Source: an uncultured Pedosphaera sp.
GTDB lineage: Bacteria > Verrucomicrobiota > Verrucomicrobiia > Limisphaerales > Pedosphaeraceae
DNA length: 64,000 nucleotides
Assembly (NCBI GenBank): GCA_903918755.1
Contig: CAIXFN010000118.1
Coordinates: forward strand, 1 to 64,000
Direction of reading: 5' to 3'
A program made the position numbers and the translations under genes. The notes below the pieces were generated by a model. It had not been told where the DNA came from and searched no databases. It was given only the letters and a program-made list of their open reading frames with translations. Shown here one piece after another: positions 5,836 to 21,305 of the stretch (positions within the stretch are counted from its first letter, which is position 1; each line of letters begins with the position of its first letter).

Positions 5836-7322
5836 CGCATGCTTCCTTCCAAATTGAAAGTGCTCACCGGCAGCTCCTTCGCCCGCGCCGGGTTGGCCGA
5901 CCGGGTGGACCAACCGGAAAAGAGAGGGGCCTTGGTGGCGGCCGGCGAATTGGTGACGCTGACATCATTTAACCGGAGATGAAACGGCGCACCCGCCAAC
6001 TTCGCCTTCAATTGCGCGACCGCCCCCTGAAAGGCCGCCGGCGTGACTGGATGGACCCCCGCCTGCGCCACCCCTCCCAATGCAACCTTCCAAAGCTCAG
6101 CCTCCCGCCGCACGAGCAAATTCGTCACCACCAAATCGGGGGGCGTAAACTCCCCCAGGGAGGCCAAAAACCAATTGGGAACGGGAGCAATGCGGTTGTC
6201 CGCCACCAAATGCGCCATCCCCTTCTTCCGCAATAACTCCTCCTCCAGCCGCTGCAACTCGAGATGGCGGGACTGGAGTTTGCCCTGTTGCGCCTGCAGA
6301 CTGGCCAGGTTGGCGCGCTCCACCCGGATCTGGTACTGGCACCATATAGCAGCCCCCAGGGAAGCGCCCACCGTGAGGATCGTGGCCGCAGTCGTGAATT
6401 TCAACAGGGCCCGCCGCTGCGGGGCCTTTTGCAGTTCCAGACTGATGAAATTCGGCAGCTGCCCCAACGGTTGGCGCAATGCCTCCGTGGCCCAATACAG
6501 GGGGGAATACTCCACCAGACTCAGTTTAACCGGCACCTGCACATGCCGCTGCAGCTCGGTAATATGCTCTTTCGCGTTGGGCCCAAAAAGCCAGAGCCCC
6601 TTGTTCACCGCCACCCCGTACTGTTGGTTCACAAAGAGAATGGTCCGACTGAGATCCACGGCCAGCCGGGCCGCGTCAGTCGACCAACTCCCGTTCAGGG
6701 TGCGCGCCAGCAGCAATTGCCCGTCATTCCGCCCGATGATAACGGTCGTGGAGCGGCCCATATTGGCCGCCAGCACCGCAATGCCCTCCTTTTCCACGCC
6801 GAACTCCGGCAATTGGCTTTGCAACACCGCCGTGGCGGGCAGCACGGAGGTCAGGAACAAGTCGTTCTTCTGGGCCGCCTGCACCAATTGGTCCAACAAA
6901 ATGCGCGGAAACAGATGCAGAACCAAACGTTGCGAACCCGGGGCAGAAAACGCCGGCTGGAAGGCAAAGGCCGCCTCCGCCTCAAACAATTTCTGCTGGC
7001 TCGCCTGGGTTTGGACGAATTTGGTCAGCGCCGGTCCCCGCAGGGGCGGCGTTTCCAGCAATTGCTGACTCAACCGCGGGTGCATCAATACCAGGGAAAC
7101 GGTGGTGCCCCGGTAACCCGTTTGCTTCACCCCTTCCCGGATCAATTCCTCAAAATGCTGGGTTCCCTCAATCTCACCCGGGTGCTCCCAACTGCCCTCC
7201 ACCACCCCGCGCTGCACCGCAATGCACTTGAACTGGTTGTTCAGCCAGCTCACGCTCAACGTCGAGATATTCGTCGGAACCGAGACCGTTCGAGTTTTCT
7301 GGGCGTGAGCGAGTTGCAGCAT
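5832..7322 (-). CDS. PilM-PilN-like (GspL-type) fusion protein
   Basis: The 496-residue protein appears to join an actin-like PilM domain (about residues 15-285) to a PilN-like part: one transmembrane helix (AATILTVGASLGAAIWC, about residues 312-328), a coiled coil (LASLQAQQGKLQSRHLELQR) and a periplasmic ferredoxin-like region. This arrangement is that of GspL, in which a cytoplasmic actin-like domain docks the GspE ATPase to the inner-membrane complex. The region VLAANMGRSTTVIIGRND resembles a phosphate-binding turn of the actin fold. The stop overlaps the PilO-like start by 4 bp. PilM and PilN are usually separate proteins in type IV pilus systems. Confidence 0.75.
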   Translation of the reverse strand: MLQLAHAQKTRTVSVPTNISTLSVSWLNNQFKCIAVQRGVVEGSWEHPGEIEGTQHFEELIREGVKQTGYRGTTVSLVLMHPRLSQQLLETPPLRGPALTKFVQTQASQQKLFEAEAAFAFQPAFSAPGSQRLVLHLFPRILLDQLVQAAQKNDLFLTSVLPATAVLQSQLPEFGVEKEGIAVLAANMGRSTTVIIGRNDGQLLLARTLNGSWSTDAARLAVDLSRTILFVNQQYGVAVNKGLWLFGPNAKEHITELQRHVQVPVKLSLVEYSPLYWATEALRQPLGQLPNFISLELQKAPQRRALLKFTTAATILTVGASLGAAIWCQYQIRVERANLASLQAQQGKLQSRHLELQRLEEELLRKKGMAHLVADNRIAPVPNWFLASLGEFTPPDLVVTNLLVRREAELWKVALGGVAQAGVHPVTPAAFQGAVAQLKAKLAGAPFHLRLNDVSVTNSPAATKAPLFSGWSTRSANPARAKELPVSTFNLEGSMR

Positions 7323-7347
7323 ATATGAATGTCACTTCCTTCCGGAA

Positions 7348-8505
7348 CTATTTGTAGTAGGTCAAGTCGGACATGACCGAGATGAAGGAATTCGTCACCA
7401 CGGCCTTCTTGGCGGCGGCAAAGCTTCCGCCGTTCGCCGCGCCGGCATAGTAAACATAATTACTCATGAAATTGTAAAAATCCCAGGTGAGGCTGGATTG
7501 GGTGACGCCAAAGGCATTGGCCCGCGGCGGCCCGGACATGAAAATATCGTAGGCCGATTGCATCACATCGCCGGAACCATTGGTGTTCCCCGTGCTGGCG
7601 GTTACGTAGAGCCCGCCCCGCCAGTATCCCTTGTCAAAAACATAACTCGGAACCTGGAAAAAATAGCTGGCATTATTCGTAAGCCGATTCACTCCCGCAT
7701 ACGGTTGCAATACCTGCAGTGATTGCAAGCCTCCGCCGTTGGTGTGCAATCCCAGGACTGCTCCCTGCAAAAAATAGGCGCTATACGGCACCTTGGGAAG
7801 GGCCGCGTGGGAATTGGTCCCGTCAATTGAGTATTCGCCATTCGTGACCGAACTGCTGTTCAAGATCACCTGCACGAACAAAGGTCCCAGATTAATTCGC
7901 TGCACCATGATGTCATCCCACGACCCGTCAACCCACCCAATCGGACTCACGCCATCAGCGGCGTTCCAAAGGTTGCTGAAGGCGACCGCATTGGTGGTGC
8001 AGCCCACCAAAACCGAGGCAGGAATGGAGGTGCGCATGCTGGTCACCAGCACGACCCGGTTCACCGGCGGGTTCGTTGGGCCGCCAGGAACTTCCGTGAA
8101 AGGGAGACTCAGGTTTGTTCCCGTGCTGGGGTTGGGAACGGTTGGGTCAACCAAAAAATACCGGCCGCCACCCAGGGCGTTCGTTTGGACCTGCCCGGGC
8201 AACCAACCCAATTGATTGGCGACATCGGTCATGATCGTGTTGGTCCCCGGGATGCGGTGATTGAGCAGGATGTAGGAATTCAAGGCATCGGAGATCGTCT
8301 GCAGGGACGACCGCTCTTGCGCGCGGCTGACAGTATCCATCTGCTTCATCAAGGACGGCTGCACGGCCAGCGCCAGGATCAAGATGATCGCCAGCACCCC
8401 GATCATCTCCACCAGTGAAAACCCCTGCTGGCGTCGCGCTGCCGCTACGAAAGGATCCCGGCCGATCCTTCCGGATTTATCCGTGAACTGGAATTGGGAT
8501 TTCAT
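7348..8505 (-). CDS. Prepilin-type protein (minor pseudopilin-like)
   Basis: The ATG at 8505 gives a 27-residue basic leader ending in RRQQG, then FSLVEMIGVLAIILILALAV, a standard class III signal with Gly at -1 and Glu at +5. The frame upstream of 8505 has no pilin-like features and overlaps the previous gene. The mature protein (385 residues in total) is much larger than GspG/H/I/J, with a long variable C-terminal region rich in Asn, Thr and Gly. Such large prepilins often sit at the pseudopilus tip (GspK-like) or carry cargo; no specific fold is recognised. It lies 25 bp before the PilM/N-like gene and so is in the same operon. Confidence 0.8.
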   Translation of the reverse strand: MKSQFQFTDKSGRIGRDPFVAAARRQQGFSLVEMIGVLAIILILALAVQPSLMKQMDTVSRAQERSSLQTISDALNSYILLNHRIPGTNTIMTDVANQLGWLPGQVQTNALGGGRYFLVDPTVPNPSTGTNLSLPFTEVPGGPTNPPVNRVVLVTSMRTSIPASVLVGCTTNAVAFSNLWNAADGVSPIGWVDGSWDDIMVQRINLGPLFVQVILNSSSVTNGEYSIDGTNSHAALPKVPYSAYFLQGAVLGLHTNGGGLQSLQVLQPYAGVNRLTNNASYFFQVPSYVFDKGYWRGGLYVTASTGNTNGSGDVMQSAYDIFMSGPPRANAFGVTQSSLTWDFYNFMSNYVYYAGAANGGSFAAAKKAVVTNSFISVMSDLTYYK

Positions 8506-8545
8506 ATCCAAAGTCTCCGCTTTCCGGGCCTGACGGTGCCCTGGA

Positions 8546-9574
8546 TCACTGCGGGGGCACCTTTCCCAAATAGATGAACACGTCCCCTTGCTGCAGCGTT
8601 TGGTTCCCCACATTATACATGTCATACTTAACCCGGCCCAGAACATCCCAATAGGCCCACATGCTCTGGCGGAAACCATCGATCGAAACACTCAACCGGT
8701 ACGCGTCGCCAACTTTCACGCCTTCCAGCACCAATTCCGCCACAATCGTGGGATTGCTGGGATCCTGGGAAGCAAAAGTGCTCGTCTGGCTATAAGGATC
8801 AAAACCGGGGTACTGAGGATTAACACCGTTCGGGATTACCCCCGGGACCGCGGGCGGCGGGGTCGTCCCCGTGGGCAGATTGTAGCAGGCAAAAAAAGGC
8901 ATTGGCCGCAAGGCGGCAACCATGGCCCCGCGGGTCGCGGTGGGCTGGTTCCAGACCCAGGCGCCGCCCCAGTCGGGGGCCGGGATGGCCGAGTACATGC
9001 TGGTAAGATCATAAAGCCCGTTGTTCCCGTTAAAATTCCCGATGTGGCCGATGTTCATCGCCGTCGTCAAGGCCGTCCCGGAACTGCTGGCGGTTATCTT
9101 GGTCAGGCGAATATAGGCGGCGGTACCGAGTCGCGTCGTCATGGTGCGATCCAAATACCTTTCCGGCAAAAGAACCTTGGTGTCCCAATACTCGTAGGCG
9201 CCGTTGGTCCAGGTGAGGATGGAGCCGTTCGGCCCCGCAAAGGTGCCCTTGTTTTGAAAGTATTTTTGGGTGGCAGCGGTGTAGTTCGCGATAGTCTTCA
9301 AATCCGCCGCCAAGCGGGCATCGTCCACGATATTATAAATCGGCGTTATCAGCATGGCGCAAAGGACCGCAACGACGACGCCGATGCCGAACATCTCGAG
9401 CATGCTGAATCCGGAAACCTTCGGGTTCCTGGCCCGCGGGGACAGCTTTGACCGGGGCGGGATGGTCAGCGGATCACTCGAGGGGAGGCTCCCGGTCAAG
9501 CCAGCCCGGATTCCGGCTGAAGGCGGATGATTCCGGGGACCGGCGGTGGATGAGGAAGGTCGGTAAGGAGTCAT
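8546..9574 (-). CDS. Prepilin-type protein with an unusually long leader
   Basis: The class III signal KVSG, then FSMLEMFGIGVVVAVLCAML, is clear, with Gly at -1 and Glu at +5. From the ATG at 9574 the leader would be 55 residues, far longer than usual and rich in Pro/Ser/Arg. A TTG near 9499 would give a leader of about 30 residues, so the start is uncertain. The mature part contains ARLAADLKTIANYTAATQKYF, typical of the pilin alpha-1 helix and following region. A conserved-looking C-terminus (DGFRQSMWAYWDVLGRVKYD) follows. It is one of five prepilins in this operon and probably a minor pseudopilin. Confidence 0.78.
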   Translation of the reverse strand: MTPYRPSSSTAGPRNHPPSAGIRAGLTGSLPSSDPLTIPPRSKLSPRARNPKVSGFSMLEMFGIGVVVAVLCAMLITPIYNIVDDARLAADLKTIANYTAATQKYFQNKGTFAGPNGSILTWTNGAYEYWDTKVLLPERYLDRTMTTRLGTAAYIRLTKITASSSGTALTTAMNIGHIGNFNGNNGLYDLTSMYSAIPAPDWGGAWVWNQPTATRGAMVAALRPMPFFACYNLPTGTTPPPAVPGVIPNGVNPQYPGFDPYSQTSTFASQDPSNPTIVAELVLEGVKVGDAYRLSVSIDGFRQSMWAYWDVLGRVKYDMYNVGNQTLQQGDVFIYLGKVPPQ

Positions 9575-9602
9575 AAAAAGTGTGGTTGGTTTGGCCGAGG
9601 GC

Positions 9603-10679
9603 TTATTTGATCAGATCCCAGGCCACATTTGTCAAAGTGCTGGCGGCCGCGGCGCTCAATGATTGAGCGGGGGCCGGATTCGTCGCGCTAAAATTGTCCA
9701 AGGACCATTGGCCAAAATAGTAGAGGTAAAGAGACATCGCATCCGCGACTGACTGTTGCTTTGGATAACGTTGCAGCTTCCCCGGGGGATTCGGGGCGGC
9801 AAGGAAGCTGTAGGCCATCTGGCCAAACCATGCCGGGTTCCCAAATTGCAGCGTGCCGCCCCAATTGCCATACTCAAAAGTGAAACCGACGCTGCCGTTG
9901 ACGTAGGTCCGGGAAAGGAGGGAATTGACATTGTTGGAGGCATAAAAATTGAGCACCGAGGTGTTGATCAACCACATTTGTTGCCGGGTCGCGGGCGCCA
10001 GCGTGGCCACGGCGTTGGTTTCAACGGAATAGTAGGCCGAATTTGTGGGATCATTATTTTCCAACACCACACAACTGAAGAGACTGCTGAGATTCAGCCG
10101 CTGGATCTTGAGATCGGCGCCGGAATTGGTCAATGCTCCGGTCCAACCCGGCGGCACCGCGTAGGCGGCGGTGTTCCACAGGTTGGAAAAAGTGGCGGCA
10201 TCAGTCGCGATCGTCGGCAAGCTTCCGGCCAGGCTGGAAACCACCAGCAAGCGGGCGCTGGTCATGACGGGTTGGACCGAACCGGTATTGCCCTGCGTAT
10301 AAGGCGGCACACTGGAGGTCGTCGTCCCCACATTGAAAGCCGGGTCATAGAGGAACGCCCGCTGCCACCCGCTGGAATTGTTGGTGATCAGGTCCGGTGA
10401 CACGTTCATCGTGTTAAATACCGGAACATACCAATTCGACGCGGCCGGCAGGGACTTGCTCTTCAGTGCCGCCGTCTGGAAAGCCGTGACGATATTCGCC
10501 AGCGAAGTAACCTCCGCGCTCCGTTTGGCGTTCTTGACGGATTCCAGCACATTCTCCGCTGCCAGGGCGCTCATGATGATGATAATCGTGAGCACCCCCA
10601 GAATCTCGATCAGCGTGAAGGCCCGCCGCTCAACCCGCGGCCGCACCGCCCACTTTGATGGCTTGATGCTTGTATTCAT
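9603..10679 (-). CDS. Prepilin-type protein with Ala at the -1 cleavage position
   Basis: Start at 10679 (MNTSIKPSKW). The leader ends VERRA and the hydrophobic helix begins FTLIEILGVLTIIIIMSALA. Glu +5 is present, but the residue before the cleavage point is Ala, where prepilin peptidases normally need Gly. The 358-residue product is large, like the neighbouring prepilins, and starts its globular part with AKRSAEVTSLANIVTAFQT. It lies only 13 bp downstream of gspF. The Ala may slow or alter processing; some type IV pilins tolerate Ala at -1. The role within the pseudopilus is unknown. Confidence 0.78.
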   Translation of the reverse strand: MNTSIKPSKWAVRPRVERRAFTLIEILGVLTIIIIMSALAAENVLESVKNAKRSAEVTSLANIVTAFQTAALKSKSLPAASNWYVPVFNTMNVSPDLITNNSSGWQRAFLYDPAFNVGTTTSSVPPYTQGNTGSVQPVMTSARLLVVSSLAGSLPTIATDAATFSNLWNTAAYAVPPGWTGALTNSGADLKIQRLNLSSLFSCVVLENNDPTNSAYYSVETNAVATLAPATRQQMWLINTSVLNFYASNNVNSLLSRTYVNGSVGFTFEYGNWGGTLQFGNPAWFGQMAYSFLAAPNPPGKLQRYPKQQSVADAMSLYLYYFGQWSLDNFSATNPAPAQSLSAAAASTLTNVAWDLIK

Positions 10680-10692
10680 TTCGTGCTTGCTT

Positions 10693-11916
10693 TCATTTGA
10701 TCGAGCCCAGCAATGACAAAATGGGGAGGAAGATCGCCAGGGCGACAAATCCCACCAACCCCACCAGGAAAAGGATGAGCATGGGTTCGGCGATGGCAAA
10801 AATCTTCTTGATCTTGCGGGGAACGATGGTGCTGTAGTACGTGGCCACATTGTTCAGCGCATCGTCCAGCTTGCCCGTATTCTCACCCATGGAGACCATG
10901 CGGATCAGCAACCCGGGAAACACCGGATGCCGCCGGAGGGATTCGCTCAAGGAATCACCCGCCTCGACCCGCGCGACAACATCCTCCAGCACGCTCCCCA
11001 CCCAGACACTGCCCACCAGCCCCTGGCAAAGCTTCAGGGCATTCACGATGACCACGCCCGAACGGTACAGAATGGCCAGGTTGCGGGCAAAGCGCGACAT
11101 GGCCAGCATGCTGTTTAAACTGCCGAACAACGGTAGTCTAAATTTAACCTTATCACAAAAAATCGCGAATTTTTTGGAACGTTTGCAGCCATAGGCCACC
11201 GCCGCCGGAACCACGGTCACTCCGATCAACCAGATCCACCAGGTGGCCTTAACGGCGTCACTGACCCCAAAAATGATCCGGGTTGGCAGCGGCAACTCCA
11301 CTTTGATGGAGGTCAAGAGCATGACAAAGCGCGGGATGACAAACGTAAAAAGCACCATGACCAGGCTCATCACCACCAGCAGGACCACCGCCGGATAGAT
11401 GGTCGCCTGTCGGACGTCGGCCATGATCTGCTCCTGCCACTCCATGTAGCGTTGCAGTTCCAGGAAAGTTTCCGGGAGGGTGCCGCTGGATTCACCCGCA
11501 CGCACCAGGCTGATGAATTGTGGCTCAAAGATCTTGGAGCCCCGCTCCATCGCCTCCCACAGCAGAACCCCGGCCTCGACATGCTTTTTGAGTTCCAACA
11601 AGGAAGCTTTGAACCCCAGGTGTTCGCAATCATCCGCGGCCACCTGGATGGCGGTCACCATGGGAATTCCCACCCGCAATTGGAAGGTCATCAAGGTGCA
11701 GAAATTAATAATTTCCTGGCGCGGTGGCCGGCCCTCAAAAAAGCGCCGCCGCTTCCGCGATTTAGCCTTGCTCTCCCCCCGGTCATGCTTCGCGCTCACC
11801 AGCCAGAGGCCCAGCCCACGCAGCTTCTCCTCCAATTCCACCTCATCGGCGGCCACCATCTTTCCCGAGACATTGCGACCGCTGCGGTCAATCCCGACAT
11901 ATCCGTAACTGGGCAT
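10693..11916 (-). CDS. gspF: Inner-membrane platform protein GspF/PilC family
   Basis: The 407-residue protein has the family's usual length and layout: two T2SSF domains and three hydrophobic helices (about residues 165-195, 215-240 and 375-400). Characteristic stretches include VGIPMVTAIQVAADD, EPQFISLVRAGESSGTLPETF, RFARNLAILYRSGVVIVNAL and RMVSMGENTGKLDDALNNVA. GspF forms the platform around which the GspE ATPase drives pseudopilin addition. The N-terminus (YGYVGIDRSGRNVSGKMVA) is the normal family start, so ATG 11916 is sound. It lies 20 bp downstream of gspE. Confidence 0.95.
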   Translation of the reverse strand: MPSYGYVGIDRSGRNVSGKMVAADEVELEEKLRGLGLWLVSAKHDRGESKAKSRKRRRFFEGRPPRQEIINFCTLMTFQLRVGIPMVTAIQVAADDCEHLGFKASLLELKKHVEAGVLLWEAMERGSKIFEPQFISLVRAGESSGTLPETFLELQRYMEWQEQIMADVRQATIYPAVVLLVVMSLVMVLFTFVIPRFVMLLTSIKVELPLPTRIIFGVSDAVKATWWIWLIGVTVVPAAVAYGCKRSKKFAIFCDKVKFRLPLFGSLNSMLAMSRFARNLAILYRSGVVIVNALKLCQGLVGSVWVGSVLEDVVARVEAGDSLSESLRRHPVFPGLLIRMVSMGENTGKLDDALNNVATYYSTIVPRKIKKIFAIAEPMLILFLVGLVGFVALAIFLPILSLLGSIK

Positions 11917-11936
11917 AGAAAAACTTTTCCGGGGGC

Positions 11937-13652
11937 TTATTCGTTGCGGGTGACCCGCAGGACTTCTTCCACCGTGGTGGCGCCGAGCAGAGCCCTTCTC
12001 ACGCCGTCCTCAAACATTGTCGTCATTCCCGCCTCCTGGGCCAGGCGGGAGAATTCCGGGGCGCCGCACCGGTGGACAATCGGATCATGAAACCGCTGAT
12101 CCAGCATCATCAATTCAAAAACCGCCAGGCGCCCCTTGAAGCCCGAGCCTTTGCAAACCCCGCAGCCCTTGCCGCGGAACAATTCCAGTGGGACTCCCTC
12201 TGGAAGGGGAAGCTTCAAGTTGGCGAATACCTTTTCGGGATGCTCGATTGGCTCGCGGCATTGGGGGCAGACGCGCCGCACCAAGCGCTGCGCCAGCACC
12301 CCGATCAAACTCGCCGGCAGCAGATACGGTTCGACCCCCATGTCCACCAACCGCGGAATCGCCCCCGGCGCATCGTTCGTATGCAGGGTGGTGAAAACGA
12401 GGTGCCCGGTCAGGGCCGCCCGCACCATTAACTGCGCCGTCTCCGTGTCCCGGGTTTCCCCCACCAGGATGATGTCCGGATCCTGCCGCAGCAGCGTCCG
12501 CAGGCCGCTGCCGAAGGTCAGCCCGATATCCTCCCGGATTTGGGTCTGCCGGATTTCCGTCATCGTGTATTCCACCGGATCTTCCAGCGTGAAAACGCTC
12601 CATTCCGAACTGGCCACCTCCCGCAGGATGGCGTAGAGCGTGGTGCTCTTGCCACTCCCGGTGGGACCGGTGACGATCACCACCCCATGCGGCCGGTCCA
12701 CGGCCGCCCGGAGGTTTTTCTCATCCCGGGGTCCCAAACCGAGCGAACTGATGGTGACCACCGTGGCAGAAGGCGCCAGGATGCGAATAACGATATTTTC
12801 CCCGTGGGTGGTGGGCAGGCTCGAGACCCGCAAATTGATTTCCCGACGGCCCACGAACACCGTGGCCCGGCCATCCTGTGGCAGGCGGTTTTCCGCCACA
12901 TCCATCCCGGCCAGGATTTTCACCCGCGACGTCACCGCGGATTGCAACGCTTTGGGAATCAACACATCCGGCTGGAGCATCCCATCAATCCGGAGCCGCG
13001 TCCGCATCAGCTTGTCTTCCGGGGCGAAATGGATGTCACTGGCGCCCAGGTTAACCGCCCGGGCGACGATCTGGCTGACCAGGCGGATCACCGGCGCGTC
13101 CTCGTCCTCCGGGCTGACCGCCAGCACATCCGGACGCCCGCCCAGATTCGCCTCCTCGGCCTCCTCTTCGATGAACTCATCGATGGATTCATCAATGGAA
13201 CCCCCGTCCGGCTGCCATTGATCGAGCAGGTTTAAGATATCCTGTTCGGTGGCAGTGACCACATCGATGTGCAGTCCGGTAACCTGGCCCAGCGTGTCAA
13301 TCGCGAGCACATTGAGGGGATCGGCCATCGCCACGGTTAGCGATCCGTTGCTTCGTTCCACCGGCAGCAAACGGAACTTACGGCAGAGTTCCATCGTCAC
13401 CAACCCCACCAACGATTTGTCAATAACCATCCGCGGAAGATCCACCAGCCGCGCCTGCGCCTCCCGGGCGACAAAGTTCGAGAGGTTTTCCACCGTGACA
13501 AACCCCAATTCCACCAACAACCGGCCGAGGCTGGCCCCGCCGCGCTTTTGTTCGCGGCGGGCCAATTCCAACTGGCTTTGCGTAATGAGACCTCCGGCCA
13601 CCAATCGCTCGCCCAGATCCATCGCCGCCGATCTATTTCCTACGAATGCCAT
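11937..13652 (-). CDS. gspE: Secretion/pilus assembly ATPase GspE/PilB family
   Basis: This 571-residue cytoplasmic ATPase powers pilin polymerisation. Residues 10-150 form a GspE N-terminal (MshEN-like) domain. The motor has the Asp box ASDIHFAPED (204-213), Walker A GPTGSGKST (329-337), Walker B DPDIILVGETRD (391-402) and the His box GHLVFTTLHTND (416-427). A zinc site with CPQC (462-465) and CGVC (497-500) separates GspE/PilB from PilT retraction motors. An acidic insert (DESIDEFIEEEAEEAN, about 154-169) links the domains. Met11 (13622) is an alternative start. No PilT-like retraction ATPase is present in the window, which favours a secretion pseudopilus over a twitching pilus. Confidence 0.96.
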   Translation of the reverse strand: MAFVGNRSAAMDLGERLVAGGLITQSQLELARREQKRGGASLGRLLVELGFVTVENLSNFVAREAQARLVDLPRMVIDKSLVGLVTMELCRKFRLLPVERSNGSLTVAMADPLNVLAIDTLGQVTGLHIDVVTATEQDILNLLDQWQPDGGSIDESIDEFIEEEAEEANLGGRPDVLAVSPEDEDAPVIRLVSQIVARAVNLGASDIHFAPEDKLMRTRLRIDGMLQPDVLIPKALQSAVTSRVKILAGMDVAENRLPQDGRATVFVGRREINLRVSSLPTTHGENIVIRILAPSATVVTISSLGLGPRDEKNLRAAVDRPHGVVIVTGPTGSGKSTTLYAILREVASSEWSVFTLEDPVEYTMTEIRQTQIREDIGLTFGSGLRTLLRQDPDIILVGETRDTETAQLMVRAALTGHLVFTTLHTNDAPGAIPRLVDMGVEPYLLPASLIGVLAQRLVRRVCPQCREPIEHPEKVFANLKLPLPEGVPLELFRGKGCGVCKGSGFKGRLAVFELMMLDQRFHDPIVHRCGAPEFSRLAQEAGMTTMFEDGVRRALLGATTVEEVLRVTRNE

Positions 13653-13756
13653 CGCGCTATTTTGGGTTGATTATTCTGCGCTTGCAATCCGCACACTTCC
13701 CGTCCGCCCTCGGGAAGTATGCGGATCTGAACCGCCGGCCCGGCCCCATTTCCGAT

Positions 13757-14329
13757 CTAGCGGTGCGCCAGATAGACGTAAAGCAAGCCGCTGCCCGAGC
13801 TGAACGAGTAGACCACACGTCCGCGAAGATCCGAGGTGGCGTTGTTGGAAGCCGAGAGCGCCGCCCCGTCAATCAAAACGCTCAATGCCTGCGCGTCCGC
13901 AATGGGCACGTTGGTAATCACGCACTCCACCACGGACCCGGCCGTGGCGGTGTTGGTATTGATGCCGTCGAATTTGTAACCATAGCCCCCGGCGCCGGGT
14001 CCGGCGGCGATCTGAACATCCGAACCACTGCCGATGCGGCAATCGAAGGGGCGCTCCAGATACTCAAGGGTGACCAGGAGTTGGTCAAAGTTGAGCTGGT
14101 TGGTGAAACTCCCGTACTTGCTGTAGAAATTCACCACGGCTGCCTTCGTGGCGTCCAGGCTGCCCTGGGTGGAGTTGAGTCGCGCATCGTTGATGGACGA
14201 CATGATTTTGGGCGTCAGCATGGCCGCCATGATGGCGATCACTGCCAGCACCCCCACCATTTCCACCATCGAGAAGCCCTTGGAGCGGCGATTCTGTTGG
14301 CGCGGATTGGATTGGACGATAATTTTCAT
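13757..14329 (-). CDS. Pseudopilin, paralogue of the adjacent upstream pilin
   Basis: The 190-residue protein has a 17-residue basic leader before the class III signal: SKG, then FSMVEMVGVLAVIAIMAAML. Its mature region (PKIMSSINDARLNSTQGSLD, then YSKYGSF) and C-terminus (LRGRVVYSFSSGSGLLYVYLAHR region) align along their length with the pilin at 14472-15065, so the two arose by tandem duplication. The size suits a GspG/H-like subunit. It is followed by a gap of about 100 bp to gspE, the only large gap in the operon apart from that following the first pilin. Confidence 0.88.
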   Translation of the reverse strand: MKIIVQSNPRQQNRRSKGFSMVEMVGVLAVIAIMAAMLTPKIMSSINDARLNSTQGSLDATKAAVVNFYSKYGSFTNQLNFDQLLVTLEYLERPFDCRIGSGSDVQIAAGPGAGGYGYKFDGINTNTATAGSVVECVITNVPIADAQALSVLIDGAALSASNNATSDLRGRVVYSFSSGSGLLYVYLAHR

Positions 14330-14375
14330 TGCCTGATTTCTTTCTTAGCCGAGTTTTCCGAAATTTGATTCCGCA

Positions 14376-14396
14376 CCCGCCAGCGGTGCTGGCGGG
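14376..14396 (-). terminator. Perfect 9-bp hairpin between the two pilin genes
   Basis: CCCGCCAGC (14376-14384) pairs exactly with GCTGGCGGG (14388-14396) around a 3-base loop. It lies 75 bp past the stop of the first pilin and before the second. Only a weak, interrupted T-rich stretch follows on the minus strand, so it may act as a partial terminator or a 3' stabiliser that raises first-gene expression over the rest of the operon. Confidence 0.45.
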
Positions 14397-14471
14397 GCGG
14401 GAGAGCTTTGCGGCATTTTTTTCCTCCAGAACATGTGCCTGCGAATGGAATAATGCCAGCCTGATTAATTC

Positions 14472-15065
14472 TTACTTGTGGGCGATATAAACGTACACAT
14501 CGGTGGTGGTAGCGCCACTCGCAGGGGCCTTGTACTCCACACGCCCTTTGAGGTCGTCGACAGTGGCATCTGACTTGGAAAGAGCATTAGCAGCAGTAGC
14601 TTCACCGTCGATGCGTTTGCTCAATTCTATGGCATCGGCAATCGACACGCCAGTAAGGACGCACTCCACCACCGCAGCATTAAGGGTAGTGTTGGCCGCA
14701 CCGTCCAAATTATAGCCAACAGTAGTATCGGGGCCGCCACTTTTAACGACATGCATTTTGCAAGAATCAGCCACTTTGCACTGAAACACACTATCCAATA
14801 AATTACTCGCCATCAGAACCTTGTCGAAGTCTTCCGCGATCGTGAACTTGTTTGTCTGAGCGTAGTAACTCATCGTCGCAGTCTTGCAAGTGTTCAACGT
14901 GGACACCGTGCTGCTGAGCTTGGAATCATTGATGGCCTGGAAGATTTTGGGGACCAGGAGGGCCGCCAAAATTGCGATCACCGCCAACACTCCGACCATT
15001 TCGATCAGGGTGAATCCGCGGGCGCTGCGTTTCGTGCTATTGTTGATATTAGTATTCAGTTTCAT
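14472..15065 (-). CDS. Probable major pseudopilin (first gene of the secretion operon)
   Basis: Start at 15065 (MKLNTNINNS): it is preceded by a GAAAGG-type ribosome site, which is rare in this window, and gives a 17-residue leader ending ARG before [20 protein letters not shown]. The 197-residue product fits a GspG-like major subunit. Its globular region has ADAIELSKRIDGEA and ends VYVYIAHK, matching its paralogue at 13757. It carries several cysteines (FQCKVADSCK, ECVL) that could form a disulfide. First position, good ribosome site, a candidate sigma-54 promoter upstream and a hairpin downstream all suggest the highest expression of the cluster. Confidence 0.87.
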   Translation of the reverse strand: MKLNTNINNSTKRSARGFTLIEMVGVLAVIAILAALLVPKIFQAINDSKLSSTVSTLNTCKTATMSYYAQTNKFTIAEDFDKVLMASNLLDSVFQCKVADSCKMHVVKSGGPDTTVGYNLDGAANTTLNAAVVECVLTGVSIADAIELSKRIDGEATAANALSKSDATVDDLKGRVEYKAPASGATTTDVYVYIAHK

Positions 15066-15120
15066 TGGTACCTTTCGAACCGTTCGTTTTTGCCCCGAAT
15101 TACCCACTCCGGAAGTTCAG

Positions 15121-15144
15121 CTTGGTTGGAAGTTTTCAACCAAG
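15121..15144. other. Inverted repeat in the pilin operon leader
   Basis: CTTGGTTG (15121-15128) pairs with CAACCAAG (15137-15144) around an 8-base loop. It lies within the presumed untranslated leader of the first pilin gene, about 55 bp before its ATG, and could form an mRNA hairpin or a protein site. Confidence 0.4.
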
Positions 15145-15173
15145 ACCGGAGAAGGCCGAGACAGATTACCCTA

Positions 15174-15190
15174 CCGCACGAATCGTGCCA
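15174..15190 (-). promoter_or_regulatory. Candidate sigma-54 (-24/-12) promoter for the pilin/secretion operon
   Basis: The minus strand reads TGGCACGATTCGTGCGG. It matches the -24 element TGGCACG exactly, and the -12 element keeps the essential GC at correct spacing (GG-N10-GC), though the flanking bases deviate from TTGCA. It is about 110 bp upstream of the first pilin ATG. Sigma-54 control of pilin genes is known in other bacteria. It overlaps a 9-bp inverted repeat (15179-15187 with 15205-15213) that could be an operator. No sigma-54 activator is encoded in the window. Confidence 0.45.
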
Positions 15191-15276
15191 CTTATTCGCA
15201 GCGACACGATTCGCAGGCCAACCCAAGTTGGTGTCAAGAGCCTAGCAGACTCTGTAAAAGAGGAAAGCTTTTTTGT

Positions 15277-15305
15277 AACTATTACAATTTTGCAACTATT
15301 ACAAT
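15277..15305. repeat. 12-bp direct repeat with 17-bp period
   Basis: AACTATTACAAT occurs exactly at 15277-15288 and 15294-15305, separated by 5 bp. It lies about 90 bp upstream of the candidate sigma-54 promoter, where an activator-binding site would be expected. Confidence 0.6.
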
Positions 15306-15420
15306 ATCAAGCACATCGGCATTGGAGGCACAGAGAAGGTCAGATAAAATGCTCGCCGGGGCTTGAATCTGCTCACGTTGCAAACTGGGCGCAAATTCCA
15401 GCCTTTGCACAATACTGGAC

Positions 15421-15591
15421 ATTGCACATGCAATGCGCACCATTCGTTTGAAATTATTGCATTGCAAACGCAACGAGATTGTCGAACACAGAACTATGGA
15501 CCGGTTTCGCTCTTTTTTCAGAGCGGCAAAATGGATTTTGGGCAGCCTGGTTTTGGCATGGGAATCGCCCAATAGGTTGTCGGCCAACGAC
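15421..15591. repeat. Diverged duplicated unit, copy A, with ATTGC/GCAAT inverted motifs
   Basis: Copy A starts with ATTGCACATGCAAT (an ATTGCA/TGCAAT inverted repeat). About 80 bp later it has a block beginning CGGTTTCGCTC that aligns without gaps over about 90 bp with copy B, with roughly two thirds identical bases by eye. Additional TTGCA/TGCAA half-sites lie just upstream (15378, 15405) and inside (15457-15466). Confidence 0.55.
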
Positions 15592-15767
15592 TTCAGGATG
15601 TGTAATTTCTCTTTCTTGGTTCGATGTTTACGCCTACCCCCCCGCAAACTAGGGCATATTAGGGGCGGGAAGCCGGCAGGAAAACCCTAGCCGTGGAGGC
15701 GGGCTGCGGTATAGATCGGAAGAGGGGCACAAGTTTCGCCAGCTACAGAGCGGCGGGCGGTAAACAA

Positions 15768-15941
15768 ATTGCATGCGCAATGCATTCCATTGCGGTGCGA
15801 AATTATGCACAGTGCAAATGCAATGTTTTAACAAACTGAAGGCTCTGCATCGGTTTCTCTTTCGTTTCCCATCAGCAAAATATACTTTCAGCAGCTTGGT
15901 GTTAGCTTTGAGATTACTCAATTGGTCGCGGGCACATGATT
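15768..15941. repeat. Diverged duplicated unit, copy B, with ATTGC/GCAAT inverted motifs
   Basis: Copy B begins with ATTGCATGCGCAAT, an exact ATTGC/GCAAT inverted repeat, followed by GCACAGTGC and TGCAAATGCAAT. The block beginning CGGTTTCTCTT at 15851 aligns with copy A at 15502, an offset of 349 bp. The same spacing between motif cluster and conserved block in both copies shows that the whole unit was duplicated. Confidence 0.55.
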
Positions 15942-16165
15942 ACATGGGACGCGTCTCTGCACTGCCCCTATATCGTTTACGGTTGATGACACGATATTCT
16001 TTATGGCGGGTGAAGCTTGGCCGAGGTTAACCTTCGCAGCCTTGCAATCTCTACCAGGGAGGACCCCGACCGATTCTGGCCACCGCTTCATTGCGCCCCA
16101 AAACGGAATCCCGCGGGCCCAGCCCAGCCGAGCAGTCCATTTCTTCTCCGGGCAAATATTGAATC

Positions 16166-16193
16166 TTGGTTTTCGGCACGCCTTATGTACAAT
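16166..16193 (+). promoter_or_regulatory. Possible sigma-70-type promoter for the two-component genes
   Basis: TTGGTT (16166-16171) and TACAAT (16188-16193) are separated by 16 bp. The -10 is a good match, the -35 is weak. It would give a leader of about 160 nt before the kinase gene. Confidence 0.3.
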
Positions 16194-16360
16194 AGTCCAA
16201 GTATGACAGTATTCGGACCGCCTCCTCTGCGGCCAGACGCAAACCGGCGCTGGCCCAGCGATCACTGGCCAGGTGGCCAGCGCCCCCGCTCCCGCCTGCC
16301 AGTCATTCTTCCGGGAACTACCGGATGGGGCGCCGAAAATAATTCAGACCGTACCTCCGC

Positions 16361-18088
16361 ATGATCGAATCCCTGCGCATATTACTACTGGAGGACGAAC
16401 CTGACCATGCCGTCCTCATTAAGATGCTCCTGGAGCGGGATAAGCTGGCCGTCACGCTCCGCCACGTGATGACCGAGCCGGATTTTCTGGCCGCCCTCAC
16501 CGCTTTTGCGCCGGAGATTGTGCTGTTGGATTTCCGCCTGCCAGGTTATGACGGCTTGTCGGCCCTGGCCGCCATGAAGGAACGGAGCATCGCCGTGCCG
16601 GTGATCATGATCTCCGGCCAGATGGGCGAGGAATTTGCGGTGCGCGCCCTTAAGGCCGGGGCGGCGGATTACCTCCTCAAACCGAATCTGCAGCGCCTGC
16701 CAGCGGCGGTCCGGCGGGCGGTCAAGGAACACCAGCAGCAACAGGCTTTTCTGCTGGCCCAGGTGGAACTGCGCCGGGCGCATGATGAATTGGAAGCGCG
16801 CGTCAAGGCGCGGACCGAGGAGTTGGAGCTCGCCAATTCCAGTCTGCATCAGGAAATTGCGGATCACCGCCGCACGGAGCAAGACTTACGCGATAGTCGC
16901 ACCTTGATCAACGCGGTATTCGCCTCGCTCTTCGGCAACGTCGGGGTTCTGGACCAGCGGGGGGAAATCATCGCGGTCAATGAGGCCTGGCAGCGGCTGG
17001 GTCAGGACCACAGCTGCCAACTGCACCGGGTGGGCATTGGCGTCAATTACCTCGAGGTCTGCCGCGCCGCCCAGAATGGCGGGGAGGAATCGGCGGCGGC
17101 CATTCTCAATGGGGTGGTAGGGGTTCTGGCGGGCACGCGTCCCGAGTTCATCGCCGAGTATTCTTGCGAAAATGCCAGTCAATCCCTGCGCTTCCGCATC
17201 TTCGTGACCCCGTTGAAACGGCCGGAGGGAGGAGCCATCATGACCCATATCGATATCACTCCCCACCATCTGGCGGAAACCCAGGTGCAACGCCTCAGTC
17301 AGGAATTGGCGCATTTTGGCCGGGTCAGCATGGCCGGGGAATTGGCGGGCGCCCTGGCCCACGAACTGCGCCAGCCCCTCACCGCCATCTTGAGCAACTC
17401 GGAAGCGGGCCTGGATTCGATTGCGAACCCCGGCGCCCTGGATGTCGGAGAATTGGGGGAAATCCTGAAGGACATTGCCGCGAGCGCGCAACATGCCGGG
17501 GAGGTGATCGGTCGCCTGCGGTCCCTGCTGAGCAAGGGCAAGTCGGAATTGCAGTCCCTGGCCCTCAACGACGTCGTAGCGGAAATCCTGCCCGTTTGCC
17601 GTCAGCAGGCCACCCTGAACTCCACGGCTTTGGTCACGGAATTGGCGCCGGATCTGCCCTCCGTGCGCGGGGACCGTATCCAGTTGGAGCAGATCCTGGT
17701 GAACCTGATCGGCAACGCCATTGAAGCTTTGAAAGCCGCGCCCCGCGGGGAACGCCGCCTGGTGGTGCGCACGCACCGCCCGGCTCCCAAGCTCGTGGAG
17801 ATTTCCGTGTGCGATAATGGACCCGGGATCCCGGAACCACTGCTGGAACGCATCTTTGATTCTTTCTTCTCCACCAAATCCCAGGGCATGGGCATGGGGC
17901 TTTCGATCTGCCGCTCCATCGCCCAATCGCATGGCGGCCGGATCTGGGCAGAAAACAACCCGGACCGGGGCGCGATCGTGCGTCTGCAACTGCCCGAGTG
18001 GGCAAACTCCGGTCCGCCCCCCGCCCTGCCGGGATCCGCCGCCACTTTGCGCACCGCCCCACCACCAACCCTTTCTGTCCGAAAGTGA
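16361..18088 (+). CDS. Receiver-PAS histidine kinase, FixL-like transmitter
   Basis: This 575-residue protein is soluble (no membrane segment). Residues 5-120 form a receiver domain with acidic pair E11/D12, phospho-acceptor D57 (VLLDFRLPGYDG) and K107 (YLLKPN). A coiled coil (about 120-180) leads to a PAS-like domain (about 180-300). The HisKA domain has H334 in LAHELRQPLTAIL, the FixL-type H-box. The ATPase domain shows the N-box LVNLIGNAIEAL, G1 DNGPGIP and G2 GMGMGLSICRSI. An N-terminal receiver means the kinase is itself a phosphorelay target. The next gene, 9 bp on, is its likely partner. With pilin genes upstream, a role in regulating the secretion cluster is possible but unproven. Confidence 0.93.
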   Translation: MIESLRILLLEDEPDHAVLIKMLLERDKLAVTLRHVMTEPDFLAALTAFAPEIVLLDFRLPGYDGLSALAAMKERSIAVPVIMISGQMGEEFAVRALKAGAADYLLKPNLQRLPAAVRRAVKEHQQQQAFLLAQVELRRAHDELEARVKARTEELELANSSLHQEIADHRRTEQDLRDSRTLINAVFASLFGNVGVLDQRGEIIAVNEAWQRLGQDHSCQLHRVGIGVNYLEVCRAAQNGGEESAAAILNGVVGVLAGTRPEFIAEYSCENASQSLRFRIFVTPLKRPEGGAIMTHIDITPHHLAETQVQRLSQELAHFGRVSMAGELAGALAHELRQPLTAILSNSEAGLDSIANPGALDVGELGEILKDIAASAQHAGEVIGRLRSLLSKGKSELQSLALNDVVAEILPVCRQQATLNSTALVTELAPDLPSVRGDRIQLEQILVNLIGNAIEALKAAPRGERRLVVRTHRPAPKLVEISVCDNGPGIPEPLLERIFDSFFSTKSQGMGMGLSICRSIAQSHGGRIWAENNPDRGAIVRLQLPEWANSGPPPALPGSAATLRTAPPPTLSVRK

Positions 18089-18097
18089 GAAATTTCC

Positions 18098-18781
18098 ATG
18101 ATCTTTCCCCCCTATATCGCCATCGTTGATGACGACGAAACCGTCGGCAAAGCCCTTAAACGCGTCCTTCGGCAATTGAATTTCGAGGTGCGGGTTTTTT
18201 CCTCCGGCCAGCTTTTTTTGGGCGCCGTTTCCGAGTCTCTCCCGGTGGTCGCCATCTTTGATGTGCAAATGCCCGAAATCAGCGGATTGGACCTGCAGGA
18301 AAGGTTGCTGGCCGAGGAGCGAAACATCCCCATCCTCTTCATCACCGCCTCCGATGATGTGGAGTTACGGCGGCAGGCCCTGGCCAATGGGGCGGTTGGT
18401 TTTATTGGCAAGCCATTCAAGCGACAGGAAATCCTGGAACTGGTCCAGAAGGCGTGTAACGTTGAACAACCAAAACCCCAAGGCTTGAAACTCCGTTTGC
18501 AGTCTCCGGTGTTGGACTGGAACCTCACCGCTCCGGTTCTGAGCGGAGCGGATTTGGATATGTTCGATCTGAAACCGTGCCCGTTCTGCCGGGCGCATCC
18601 CCGCCTGGATAAGATCTCATTCGTGGATGCGCGCGGCCGGACCTGTTTCCAGGCGCGGGTGGCCTGCCCCAATTGTACTGCGGAGGTAAGCGCGGAGACA
18701 AAAGCGGTATTTTCCACCTCCATGAGCGCCGTCAATGATGCCATGAAACGCTGGAATCGCCGTCAGGCCCTGCCCAGTTAG
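18098..18781 (+). CDS. FixJ-type receiver fused to a Lar-like zinc ribbon
   Basis: Residues 5-120 are a receiver domain: acidic patch DDDE (11-14), phospho-acceptor D55 in VAIFDVQMPEISG, T83 in LFITASDD and K105 in FIGKPF. After a linker of about 35 residues, where FixJ-family proteins carry a LuxR helix-turn-helix, residues 156-222 form a two-CxxC zinc ribbon (CPFC at 161-164, CPNC at 190-193) ending in NDAMKRWNRR. The order LKPCPFC, then CPNC, then a terminal WNRR is the signature of the phage restriction-alleviation protein Lar family. No DNA-binding helix-turn-helix is seen. The gene is cotranscribed with the kinase. Output by zinc-ribbon DNA, RNA or protein binding is an inference. Confidence 0.88.
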   Translation: MIFPPYIAIVDDDETVGKALKRVLRQLNFEVRVFSSGQLFLGAVSESLPVVAIFDVQMPEISGLDLQERLLAEERNIPILFITASDDVELRRQALANGAVGFIGKPFKRQEILELVQKACNVEQPKPQGLKLRLQSPVLDWNLTAPVLSGADLDMFDLKPCPFCRAHPRLDKISFVDARGRTCFQARVACPNCTAEVSAETKAVFSTSMSAVNDAMKRWNRRQALPS

Positions 18782-18999
18782 CCCAACTTCCGCAACTGGA
18801 AGGGCGAAAACAAGCAGACGTCTACGAAACGGCGTCGGCGATCAAATGGTGTGAACCGAGCGGCTATTCAGAGCCCATCCCTGGCCGGAAGAACAATGAG
18901 CCCAATCCAGCCGCACGAATATATTCCCCCCACCGAATCGCCTCCAGGTGCCCGAAACCCCGTTCCTTCCGGTCATCTCGGGAACGGGCACCAATCGCT

Positions 19000-19890
19000 T
19001 TACCACTTCAACACGGGCGGAAAAAACTCCTTGATCAGATCATCGTAAAACGGTCGCAATTGCTGAAGATTGGGTCGTTGAGCGCTTTTCGTGTATAAAT
19101 CATACGGGTTGAAGGCCTGCACCCATTTGAGCATTTCCCGGTCCTCCGCATTCAGCAGTTGAGCGTATTCACCTTCGCGATGCCAGGGATAAAACGAGTG
19201 GTAGCGAATCATATATAAGGCCTCCTTGGGCAGGTAGTCCTTCGTGACATGATAGAGATACTCGTCGTGCCCCCAGGACAGGCAAACCTTGTCCAGTCCG
19301 CAATTCTCTTCATAAATCCCCAACCGGCTGGCAAAACGGGGATTCTGGCTGTCGGGATTGTCCGCAAAGAATTTCGGAAACACAATCTTGTCCGAATACG
19401 CCACTCCCACGGGGAACGTATCCCCTACGACGGCCCATTGCGGCTCGCCGAACAGGCACAAAATCTTGCCCAAGTCATGGATAAATCCCGTCAAAATGAA
19501 CCAGCGGGGATGCCCATCCTTGCGAATTTGTTCGGCGGTTTGCAGCAAATGCTCCATTTGGGAGAGGTCCGTATCCGGGTCGCTGTCATCCACCAGGGTG
19601 TTCAAGTACTCCAACGCGTCCCAAATCCCCATCTGCCGGCGGTTAAGGCCCAGGAATTCCCGGCGCTTCTCCTGGACAAAATCAAAACTCTGATGCCGGT
19701 GATTGAGCCGGTAGAATTCCCGCACCGAGGGGCGGGCGGTATTCTCATAATCCCGGAATTGCTCCTGCTTCTTTTCGGGATTCGGCCCGACGAGCGTCGG
19801 GTCCGGATACCGTTCCTTCAGAAAATCCTCCCACTCCTCAAGATTACCCAAGGGGGCATTGGCTGGTGCGGCGCCGTTCAATGTTGCCAT
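19000..19890 (-). CDS. miox: Myo-inositol oxygenase (EC 1.13.99.1)
   Basis: The 296-residue product matches the MIOX family across its whole length. It converts myo-inositol to D-glucuronate with a di-iron centre and O2. Visible family motifs include [43 protein letters not shown] (HD-fold iron ligands), [29 protein letters not shown] and [10 protein letters not shown]. Animal enzymes are about 285 residues. The start at 19890 (MATLNGAAP) is chosen because family similarity begins shortly after it; the longer frame runs into the terminator and next gene. MIOX is common in eukaryotes and patchy in bacteria. No other inositol or glucuronate genes are adjacent. The 218 bp after the two-component genes hold no feature. 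Confidence 0.95.
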
Positions 19891-20003
19891 AAGCTTTGTT
19901 CGTACTGGTTCAAAACATGAAATCTGGTCAAAAACATGCCGTTCAAGGCCCTCTCTCGCAAGGGAAAAAGAGTGCCGCCCGTCCCGGCAACTCCCAGCCA
20001 GAA

Positions 20004-20036
20004 CAAAAAGGCCGGGTCGCTGGCGCGACCCGGCCT
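20004..20036 (-). terminator. Intrinsic terminator of the secreted protein gene at 20058
   Basis: On the minus strand AGGCCGGGTCGC pairs with GCGACCCGGCCT around a 4-base loop, followed by TTTTTGTTC. It is a strong rho-independent terminator 20 bp past the stop codon. It separates the secreted protein gene from MIOX. Confidence 0.85.
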
Positions 20037-20057
20037 GATCGGTCGATTCAGAATTAC

Positions 20058-21305
20058 TTACGGAAAAGACAGGACGCAGCCGCCCGCGCCGCCGGTGTAA
20101 CCGTTGCTCCACAGCGACTGCACCGGGAACGTGCCAGTGGACAGGGTGACATTCGCCGAAGCGCCCTGACCGGAAGAGATCCAGGCGCATTTGTCGCCGT
20201 TTTCCGCGCCGGTCGAGTCGGTCCAACCGCCGCTGGGAAACTGGTCGGTGATGGTTTCGCCCAATTCGTGTCCGGCCACCATCGTGATGCCCGCTTTCGC
20301 ACCCAAACCGTTGAAGCCGGCGCCGCAACTGGCTCCCGCATCGGTCAAATAAGGCAGGTTGCTGTAAGCGATGTTACCATAGGAGGACGAGGTGTAGCTG
20401 TGCCAGGCGCAATACTGCGTGCCGAAGCCGGAGGCGCTGTTCCCGTGCGACGTGGCAATGATGTACTGCACACTGGCGTTCGCCTTGGCGCTGGTATTCC
20501 CGAAATGGGCCGCCGCCTTCACCGCCTCCGCCGCCAGTTGCGCTTGCGTCGGATGCGCGGGGGCACTGGCTGAATTGTCCGACCAGATCCCGGCCAGCAT
20601 GCCCGCCTGGTTTCCCGCCGCTGTTCCGCCGCTGCTGATGTAGGTTCCAACTGGAACGCCTTGGTGGTACTGGGTGACACTGTTCAGCCACGCGCTGCCG
20701 CCGACCCCTTTGTAAAAATTCGTCAAGATCCCGACCTCACCCGAAGGGTCGTTGTTCTTCCATTGCGAGCCCCATAGGACCAAATAGATCTTGGGCGCGG
20801 TCTCCACGCCAATGCCACCGACTCCCCCCTTGTAAGAGAGGTCATTGGCGTAGGAGACGGCGGGGAGCGCACGCGCGTTTAGGGCGGCCTCAACCGTGGG
20901 ATGAATGACGGCATTTTCGAGCTTTTCCGGCCGGATAGCGTTCAGAAAGAGGTGGAGCCGGGTGACCGTTTCTCTGACTGTCAAACCGGGCATTTCTCCC
21001 TCGTTTAAAAGGACAAACTCGTAAAGGTTCGCGTTGGCCAAACCGCGGTCGTTTTGGTTCAAGGTGGCCAGCGCGGCGCTCAGGACGTGCGCCGGCGAAG
21101 CCTGAAAGAAAGGAACGCTGGCGACCTGGTCGTCCGTGGCGGAGGACCCCAAACTATTGAGACTGAGACCAGCCAGCGTCGTGGCAATCTCCGCGGCCTG
21201 ATCATCGTTGAGACTGACTGCACGCGGAAGGCCCGCGACCGCGGCGGTGGTTCCCCACGCCGCCAAGGCGATAAGGCTAAGGTAGCTTAAGTTTTTGGTT
21301 TTCAT
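20058..21305 (-). CDS. Secreted protein, EXORDIUM/metallopeptidase-like
   Basis: The ATG at 21305 gives a 415-residue preprotein with signal peptide ([18 protein letters not shown], then TAAVAGLP). The middle has [15 protein letters not shown]. The C-terminal part has [20 protein letters not shown] and [16 protein letters not shown]. The pattern (YLVLWGSQW, then a HELxE segment, Asp-rich turn, late Cys residues) recalls bacterial proteins related to the plant EXORDIUM/Phi-1 family, some annotated as peptidases. The HELGE segment could bind zinc, but a full HExxH is absent, so catalysis is unproven. The gene has its own promoter and terminator and is monocistronic. It probably acts outside the cell. 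Confidence 0.65.

Follow-up and report, generated by a model that had tools for sequence, protein, structure and literature searches.

A response regulator with a Lar-family zinc ribbon at its C terminus, paired with a histidine kinase beside a type IV filament cluster in Pedosphaeraceae

Regulators of the FixJ and NarL/FixJ type (NF006900) are recognized by a C-terminal LuxR-type helix-turn-helix domain that follows the receiver. Among proteins of the Lar family (PF14354, TIGR03655), Lar of the Rac prophage has a restriction alleviation function. Lambda Ral is described in a review (PMC12707154), in the examined portion of which the whole word "Lar" does not occur. A PF14354 domain has also been described, in the accessible part of PMC3919608, in place of the C-terminal domain of a DNA polymerase, DnaE1 of Desulfococcus oleovorans. 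As for cysteine-rich outputs of receivers, the available text of PMC5847659 presents TackOD1, a domain with 11 conserved Cys residues arranged in five CXXC motifs plus an HXXC motif, which has been compared to a double zinc ribbon and occurs in some bacteria as well as in type IV pilus loci of thaumarchaea.

The window, that is, the whole stretch of 64,000 nucleotides from an uncultured Pedosphaera sp. that was analysed (contig CAIXFN010000118.1), contains an open reading frame that runs from ATG to TAG exactly at positions 18098 to 18781 of the forward strand and encodes a response regulator of 227 residues, hereafter REC-Lar, with the full-length orthologs L060 and L061. All features of this protein lie on the same strand. 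Its receiver domain (residues 7 to 116; 18116 to 18445) matches PF00072 well above the cut-off (2e-25, 89.6 bits versus 30.2) and presents the acidic pair D11 and D12, the phosphoacceptor D55 (codon at 18260 to 18262), T83 and K105, all five of which are invariant in the three receivers. The modelled receiver aligns with known REC structures (best Z 21.1, rmsd 1.4, 120 aligned residues). In particular, the receiver is FixJ-like: its top NCBIfam match is FixJ (NF006900; 94.9 bits over residues 6 to 125, far under the FixJ cut-off of 255), and the FixJ receiver 1d5w aligns with the model at Z 19.6 (rmsd 2.5, 122 aligned), many other receivers scoring equally high. A further likeness to FixJ is that the gene follows a kinase with an HELxQP-type H-box.

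The predicted structure (mean pLDDT 73, from a three-row alignment) shows, after the receiver, a loose stretch at residues 124 to 155 (18467 to 18562, pLDDT below 50), a beta-strand ribbon and a helix at residues 208 to 222. The ribbon, whose pLDDT is 79 when modelled alone, corresponds to residues 157 to 222 (18566 to 18763) and contains CPFC (residues 161 to 164; 18578 to 18589), CPNC (C190-P191 to C193; 18665 to 18676) and the terminal WNRR (W219-N220-R221-R222; 18752 to 18763). C161-P-F-C164, C190-P191, C193 and R218-W-N-R-R222 are invariant in all three ribbons. Different from FixJ and NarL/FixJ regulators, REC-Lar shows the zinc ribbon in place of the LuxR-type helix-turn-helix: neither GerE nor any other helix-turn-helix is present among its 10 Pfam matches at E values up to 10, a range in which HMMER filters drop most weak matches. 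The earlier note, made from the sequence alone, had described a receiver with D55, T83 and K105 joined to a ribbon with CPFC, CPNC and WNRR instead of the helix-turn-helix; these observations are confirmed, and the fusion of a receiver with a zinc ribbon is real.

The same note had called the ribbon Lar-like, and its assignment depends in part on the model used. PF14354 (Lar_restr_allev) matches residues 157 to 222 at 1.1e-8, with 35.6 bits against a cut-off of 28.6, a value also exceeded by the ribbons of the two orthologs (36.3 and 39.4 bits), and no other zinc-ribbon family in Pfam reaches its own cut-off on the window protein. Furthermore, REC-Lar is matched at 1.2e-9 by phrog_599 of PHROGs, annotated as a Lar-like restriction alleviation protein. 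The stricter NCBIfam model TIGR03655 (cut-off 39.6) is not passed by any of the three, the window protein scoring 34.3 and the orthologs 37.8 and 37.4. Thus the ribbon is Lar according to Pfam and falls slightly short of Lar according to NCBI.

Like the other members of PF14354, the REC-Lar ribbon combines CPFC and a second Cys pair with a C-terminal WN.R motif, here WNRR; different from them, it is fused to a receiver, lies beside chromosomal genes and has a longer loop between the Cys pairs. When the three REC-Lar ribbons were compared by hhalign with 12 other Lar domains, the probability was 98.4 (E 6e-15) over 54 columns that reach the WNxR end, versus 90.7 (E 1e-6) over 38 columns, the WNxR end not included, for five generic CxxC ribbons. 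A profile built from the 12 Lar domains scores the three ribbons at 27.4, 19.4 and 17.6 bits, and the best of the Cys-fixed shuffles reaches 12.7 bits (899 of 900 reported), so that the likeness goes beyond chance; with a generic-ribbon profile the window protein obtains 0.1, L060 12.8 and L061 16.7, and the shuffles up to 14.9 (891 of 900 reported). Since L061 exceeds the shuffles as a generic ribbon too, the separation between Lar and generic ribbons is clear-cut only for the window protein; L061 is also the member of the trio with the top Pfam Lar score (39.4 bits), all generic ribbon families remaining under their cut-offs. As regards the fold, a Foldseek search with the ribbon alone returned nothing at an E value of 0.001 or better (best 0.035), and a sequence search of the PDB gave a best E value of 0.3. 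The best VIA-align Z of 7.1 was obtained for the double-stranded RNA-binding domain 2l2m (rmsd 2.6, 64 aligned) and for the ribosome factor RaiA in 8rd8 (rmsd 3.1, 77 aligned), a likeness which may merely reflect a common arrangement and from which we do not draw a function.

Going by the description of TackOD1 in the available part of PMC5847659, REC-Lar resembles it in being a receiver with a Cys-rich, zinc-ribbon-like output near type IV filament genes, and differs from it in having two Cys pairs and WNRR where TackOD1 has 11 Cys residues. Residues 146 to 227 of REC-Lar, read from the sequence, hold only two CxxC pairs, and the Pfam matches of the protein do not include TackOD1. With DnaE1 of D. 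oleovorans, as presented in the accessible text of PMC3919608, REC-Lar shares the use of a PF14354 domain as a substitute for the usual C-terminal domain, the host protein being a response regulator and not a polymerase. An earlier description of REC-Lar was not found in the literature searched, most subscription papers and Galperin's two output-domain surveys excepted. As regards the proposal of the earlier note that this would be a new type of output domain, the idea of a zinc-ribbon-like receiver output is not entirely new, TackOD1 being a precedent (PMC5847659).

REC-Lar occurs in 3 of 320 genomes of the order, that of the window included, with up to 9 candidates scored per genome. The full-length relatives belong to G408 (45% identity over residues 2 to 223) and G484 (48% over residues 6 to 223), which represent one genus in a different family of the same order, so that the fusion, for which the earlier note had suggested a search across Verrucomicrobia, is indeed present in relatives; in four more genomes from this search only the receiver is matched. 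A profile of the three ribbons (A3) matches 5 of 313 genomes of the order, including the three with REC-Lar. The remaining matches, in G589 and G590, were dropped as chance matches on account of three internal stop codons, one of them (L071) read by eye. Across the class, the profile finds the same 3 of 378 genomes, and the seven further genomes analysed in the window's family, of which one is of the same genus, gave no ribbon match. The occurrence in two separated lineages, with absence between them, fits horizontal transfer or repeated loss.

Outside the trio, relatives are confined to parts of the protein. Over 387 genomes of the phylum, PF14354 gives at least 17 matches above the cut-off in at least 13 genomes; a receiver was seen by eye at the start of none of the 12 PF14354-bearing frames besides that of the window, and 10 of the loci with matches under the cut-off were also read for a fusion. 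Four matches above the cut-off that have no locus were set aside, their frames of 62 to 124 residues being too short for a fusion with REC. A contig scan with the full protein yielded 17 relatives, 16 of which end by residue 131 and one of which (L038) reaches residue 169, short of the end of the ribbon. Against plasmids, tblastn returned 4108 records, 81 of which cover at least 80% of the query; among the 20 matches listed, those reaching residues 183 to 226 are 24 to 32% identical, with E values weaker than those of the best receiver-only rows, and were taken as receiver matches that continue into other regulators. The ribbon itself finds one phage record (E 9e-4) by tblastn and seven relatives, at 29 to 36%, on viral contigs. 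Among the other Lar-bearing frames, L014 (1486 to 2091) encodes 201 residues, the Lar ribbon (35.5 bits) being N-terminal and followed by a long tail of helical appearance, and exceeds the usual size of a stand-alone Lar. L016, which by eye had at first seemed ParB-like with a Lar end, was discarded as evidence because ParB was not found in Pfam at an E value of 0.01 and its Lar match of 26.9 bits is under the cut-off (30.1 in the phylum-wide PF14354 scan); it shows only weak helix-turn-helix matches.

Selection on the two domains could be compared between G408 and G484. The dN/dS ratio of the ribbon is 0.09 (NG86) or 0.15 (YN00) and that of the receiver 0.13 or 0.15, respectively; the ribbon is under purifying selection and, its ratio being as low as that of the receiver, it is in use. 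These values bear on the possibility that the ribbon is a mere structural or dimerising tail and that the receiver signals by itself, in the manner of CheY or DivK or as a phosphate sink for the kinase. Such a role would agree with the nearest receivers outside the trio, which include short and apparently single-domain frames (L063, 129 residues; L062, 141 residues), but we regard it as unlikely, since CPFC, the second Cys pair and RWNRR are kept across two families and purifying selection on the ribbon is as strong as on the receiver.

The likely cognate sensor kinase is encoded at 16361 to 18088 of the forward strand, ending 9 bases upstream of REC-Lar. It comprises an N-terminal REC domain, a PAS-like region, HisKA with an HELRQP motif and HATPase_c; REC, HisKA (35.4 versus 26.9) and HATPase_c (94.7 versus 26.4) are above their Pfam cut-offs, as is proper of a HisKA histidine kinase, and PAS_7 is under its own (15.7 versus 27 bits). 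The designation "FixL-like" that had been given to this kinase thus suits only the kinase core; of a PAS domain, which in FixL binds haem, Pfam shows only this PAS_7 match. Kinase and regulator are adjacent in all three genomes: in G408 the aligned part of the kinase upstream of REC-Lar is 51% identical, and Pfam assigns this kinase two PAS domains; the stop codon of the kinase and the start codon of the regulator overlap (ATGA) in G408 as well as in G484. The same kinase upstream of the fusion in other genomes had been named beforehand as support for a system, and G408 and G484 provide it. When only the PAS-like region is used as the query, 78 of 313 genomes are matched at an E value of 1e-8, the top outside matches being G408 and G484 (3e-60 and 1e-56), followed by G412 (2e-32). 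In the eight loci around the next matches (L133 to L140, several cut by contig ends), no REC-Lar was found; REC-LuxR-type regulators were recognized by eye beside L135, L136 and L139.

On the other side of the kinase, the reverse strand carries a type IV filament (pilus or type II secretion-like) cluster from 2739 to 15107, recognized by Pfam and by conserved gene order. It includes a secretin (2739 to 4586, above the Pfam cut-off) and PilP-like (4583 to 5179), PilO-like (5176 to 5913) and PilM-like (5832 to 7322) genes, the latter two with no Pfam match and named from gene order. These are accompanied by prepilin-like frames at 7348 to 8691 (N_methyl above the cut-off), 8546 to 9574 (no Pfam match, named from gene order) and 9603 to 10850 (N_methyl at 17.4, below the cut-off of 21.2, named from gene order). 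PilC/GspF (10693 to 11916, T2SSF), PilB/GspE (11937 to 13652, T2SSE and MshEN) and prepilins at 13757 to 14329 and 14472 to 15107 (N_methyl) complete the cluster, all with domains above their cut-offs. The MshEN domain, which binds c-di-GMP, is at the N terminus of the PilB/GspE ATPase (5e-21).

The order of the cluster is kept in seven other genomes, although not each gene was seen in every one: by tblastn it was found in G408, G438, G406, G399, G430 and G484, and in part in G437. In the window genome (G000), about 1.25 kb separates the pair of kinase and REC-Lar from the prepilin end of the cluster, and pair and cluster are on opposite strands. In G408 the pair also adjoins the cluster, past the secretin and in the orientation of the cluster genes, in the order prepilin, PilB, PilC, prepilins, PilM-, PilO- and PilP-like, secretin, hybrid kinase, REC-Lar kinase and REC-Lar. 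In G484, contig C377, which bears the cluster, ends about 145 bases after the same hybrid kinase, whereas contig C266 breaks off within the REC-Lar kinase, so that a G408-like order is likely there. The pair would thus flank the filament cluster in all three REC-Lar genomes, with G484 read across a contig end; since G408 and G484 belong to the same genus, the link amounts to two independent cases only. Of 58 genomes sampled, 7 gave a match to the PilM-like protein, including G000 and G408; as G484, tested apart, gave one too, the protein was found in all three genomes with REC-Lar. In the five other cluster-bearing genomes (G438, G406, G399, G430 and G437) REC-Lar was not found, which indicates that the cluster can do without it. 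In G399, the cluster has another kinase frame and a receiver-like match at its side, and in G408 and G484 a NarL-type pair and one more hybrid kinase are nearby, so that other regulators could serve the cluster. The NarL-type pair consists of a HisKA_3 kinase and a REC-LuxR regulator convergent with REC-Lar (L066, 2877 to 4279; L067, 5756 to 7155; Pfam for the G408 pair only).

Apart from the filament cluster, the genes read around REC-Lar comprise MIOX and frames with no telling Pfam matches. MIOX, a bacterial myo-inositol oxygenase (PF05153, 1.6e-111), makes up the last 242 of the 441 residues encoded at 19000 to 20328 of the window. Between prepilin and kinase, positions 15271 to 15304 hold two tandem 17-base copies with a near-perfect dyad (TTGTAACTATTACAA, TTGCAACTATTACAA), which we consider a candidate operator: two matches at up to 2 mismatches occurred in 0 of 100 shuffles of the window, and a looser pattern, an exact match of which is absent in the G408 and G484 loci, in 5 of 100. 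At 15175 to 15213, an inverted repeat (14-base arms, 86% complementary) overlaps a sigma-54-like box that lies, on the minus strand, ahead of the prepilin at 14472 to 15107; neither is clearly above shuffles, the box scoring 10 versus a mean of 8.2 and a largest value of 11 in 100 shuffles. Rfam gave nothing in window positions 15000 to 20500, and the PADLOC matches were limited to weak ones, to SduA and PDC-M60B, in the receiver regions.

REC-Lar is rare and conserved, and in two lineages it has a partner kinase and a filament cluster nearby. The reading that we tentatively prefer is that of a phosphorylation-switched two-component regulator with the Lar ribbon as its output, probably serving the filament cluster. 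The soluble hybrid kinase (16361 to 18088) would pass phosphate to D55 of the receiver, as the conserved residues and the pairing of the genes suggest, and phosphorylation would alter the surface of the receiver and, with it, how freely the C-terminal Lar ribbon moves or how it pairs; in the model, some 30 loosely ordered residues link this ribbon to the receiver. The output would be the ribbon, for which beta strands with two Cys pairs and a terminal helix closing with RWNRR are predicted. It may bind a partner, nucleic acid or a protein acting on nucleic acid being the most likely candidates; judging from the gene neighbourhood, this binding may adjust the adjoining filament cluster. As to the origin of the protein, a FixJ-type receiver may have swapped its helix-turn-helix for a Lar ribbon.

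A possible, if rather unlikely, variant is that nucleic acid is not involved and that the receiver controls the docking of the ribbon on a component of the filament or secretion machinery, such as PilB or PilM. The modest net charge of the three ribbons (+5, +1 and +3) speaks against the preferred reading and, like the gene neighbourhood, would suit such docking, as would the MshEN domain on PilB/GspE, which indicates that the motor has a regulatory part; nevertheless, of the eight clusters read, five are in genomes in which REC-Lar was not found.

The implication of the earlier note that the ribbon may weaken type I restriction finds no support in the present data. According to this explanation, which we consider very unlikely, the ribbon would act on a type I restriction-modification enzyme like Rac Lar or lambda Ral, switched by the receiver. 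Membership in PF14354 and the match to phrog_599 agree with it, together with the circumstantial presence of HSDR_N in G000 (two matches) and G408 (one weak match). However, all three ribbons are below the TIGR03655 cut-off, HSDR_N was not found in G484 (a genome 89% complete), leaving two of the three genomes with it, and the neighbours read around REC-Lar are filament genes with no phage, prophage or restriction-modification genes among them. Moreover, a Lar ribbon on an unrelated protein, a DNA polymerase, is already in print (PMC3919608, in the part available), so that Lar membership does not imply anti-restriction. It is highly improbable that the pair links DNA uptake to defence, with the filament as a DNA-uptake pilus and the kinase firing so that the Lar ribbon briefly shields incoming DNA from the cell's own restriction; were it so, the pair would, to our knowledge, be without precedent as an anti-restriction switch owned by the host and controlled by a signal.

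With the two-component reading, response regulators gain an output domain, the Lar ribbon. REC-Lar would also offer a handle on the partners of Lar ribbons, since its target should be phosphorylation-switchable and is probably linked to filaments. The parallel with TackOD1 in archaeal pilus loci, as described in the accessible part of PMC5847659, raises the question of whether Cys-rich receiver outputs are used for type IV filaments in both domains of life. Finally, the proteins of PF14354 are named after one phage function, and a chromosomal member under selection could reveal the general role of the fold.
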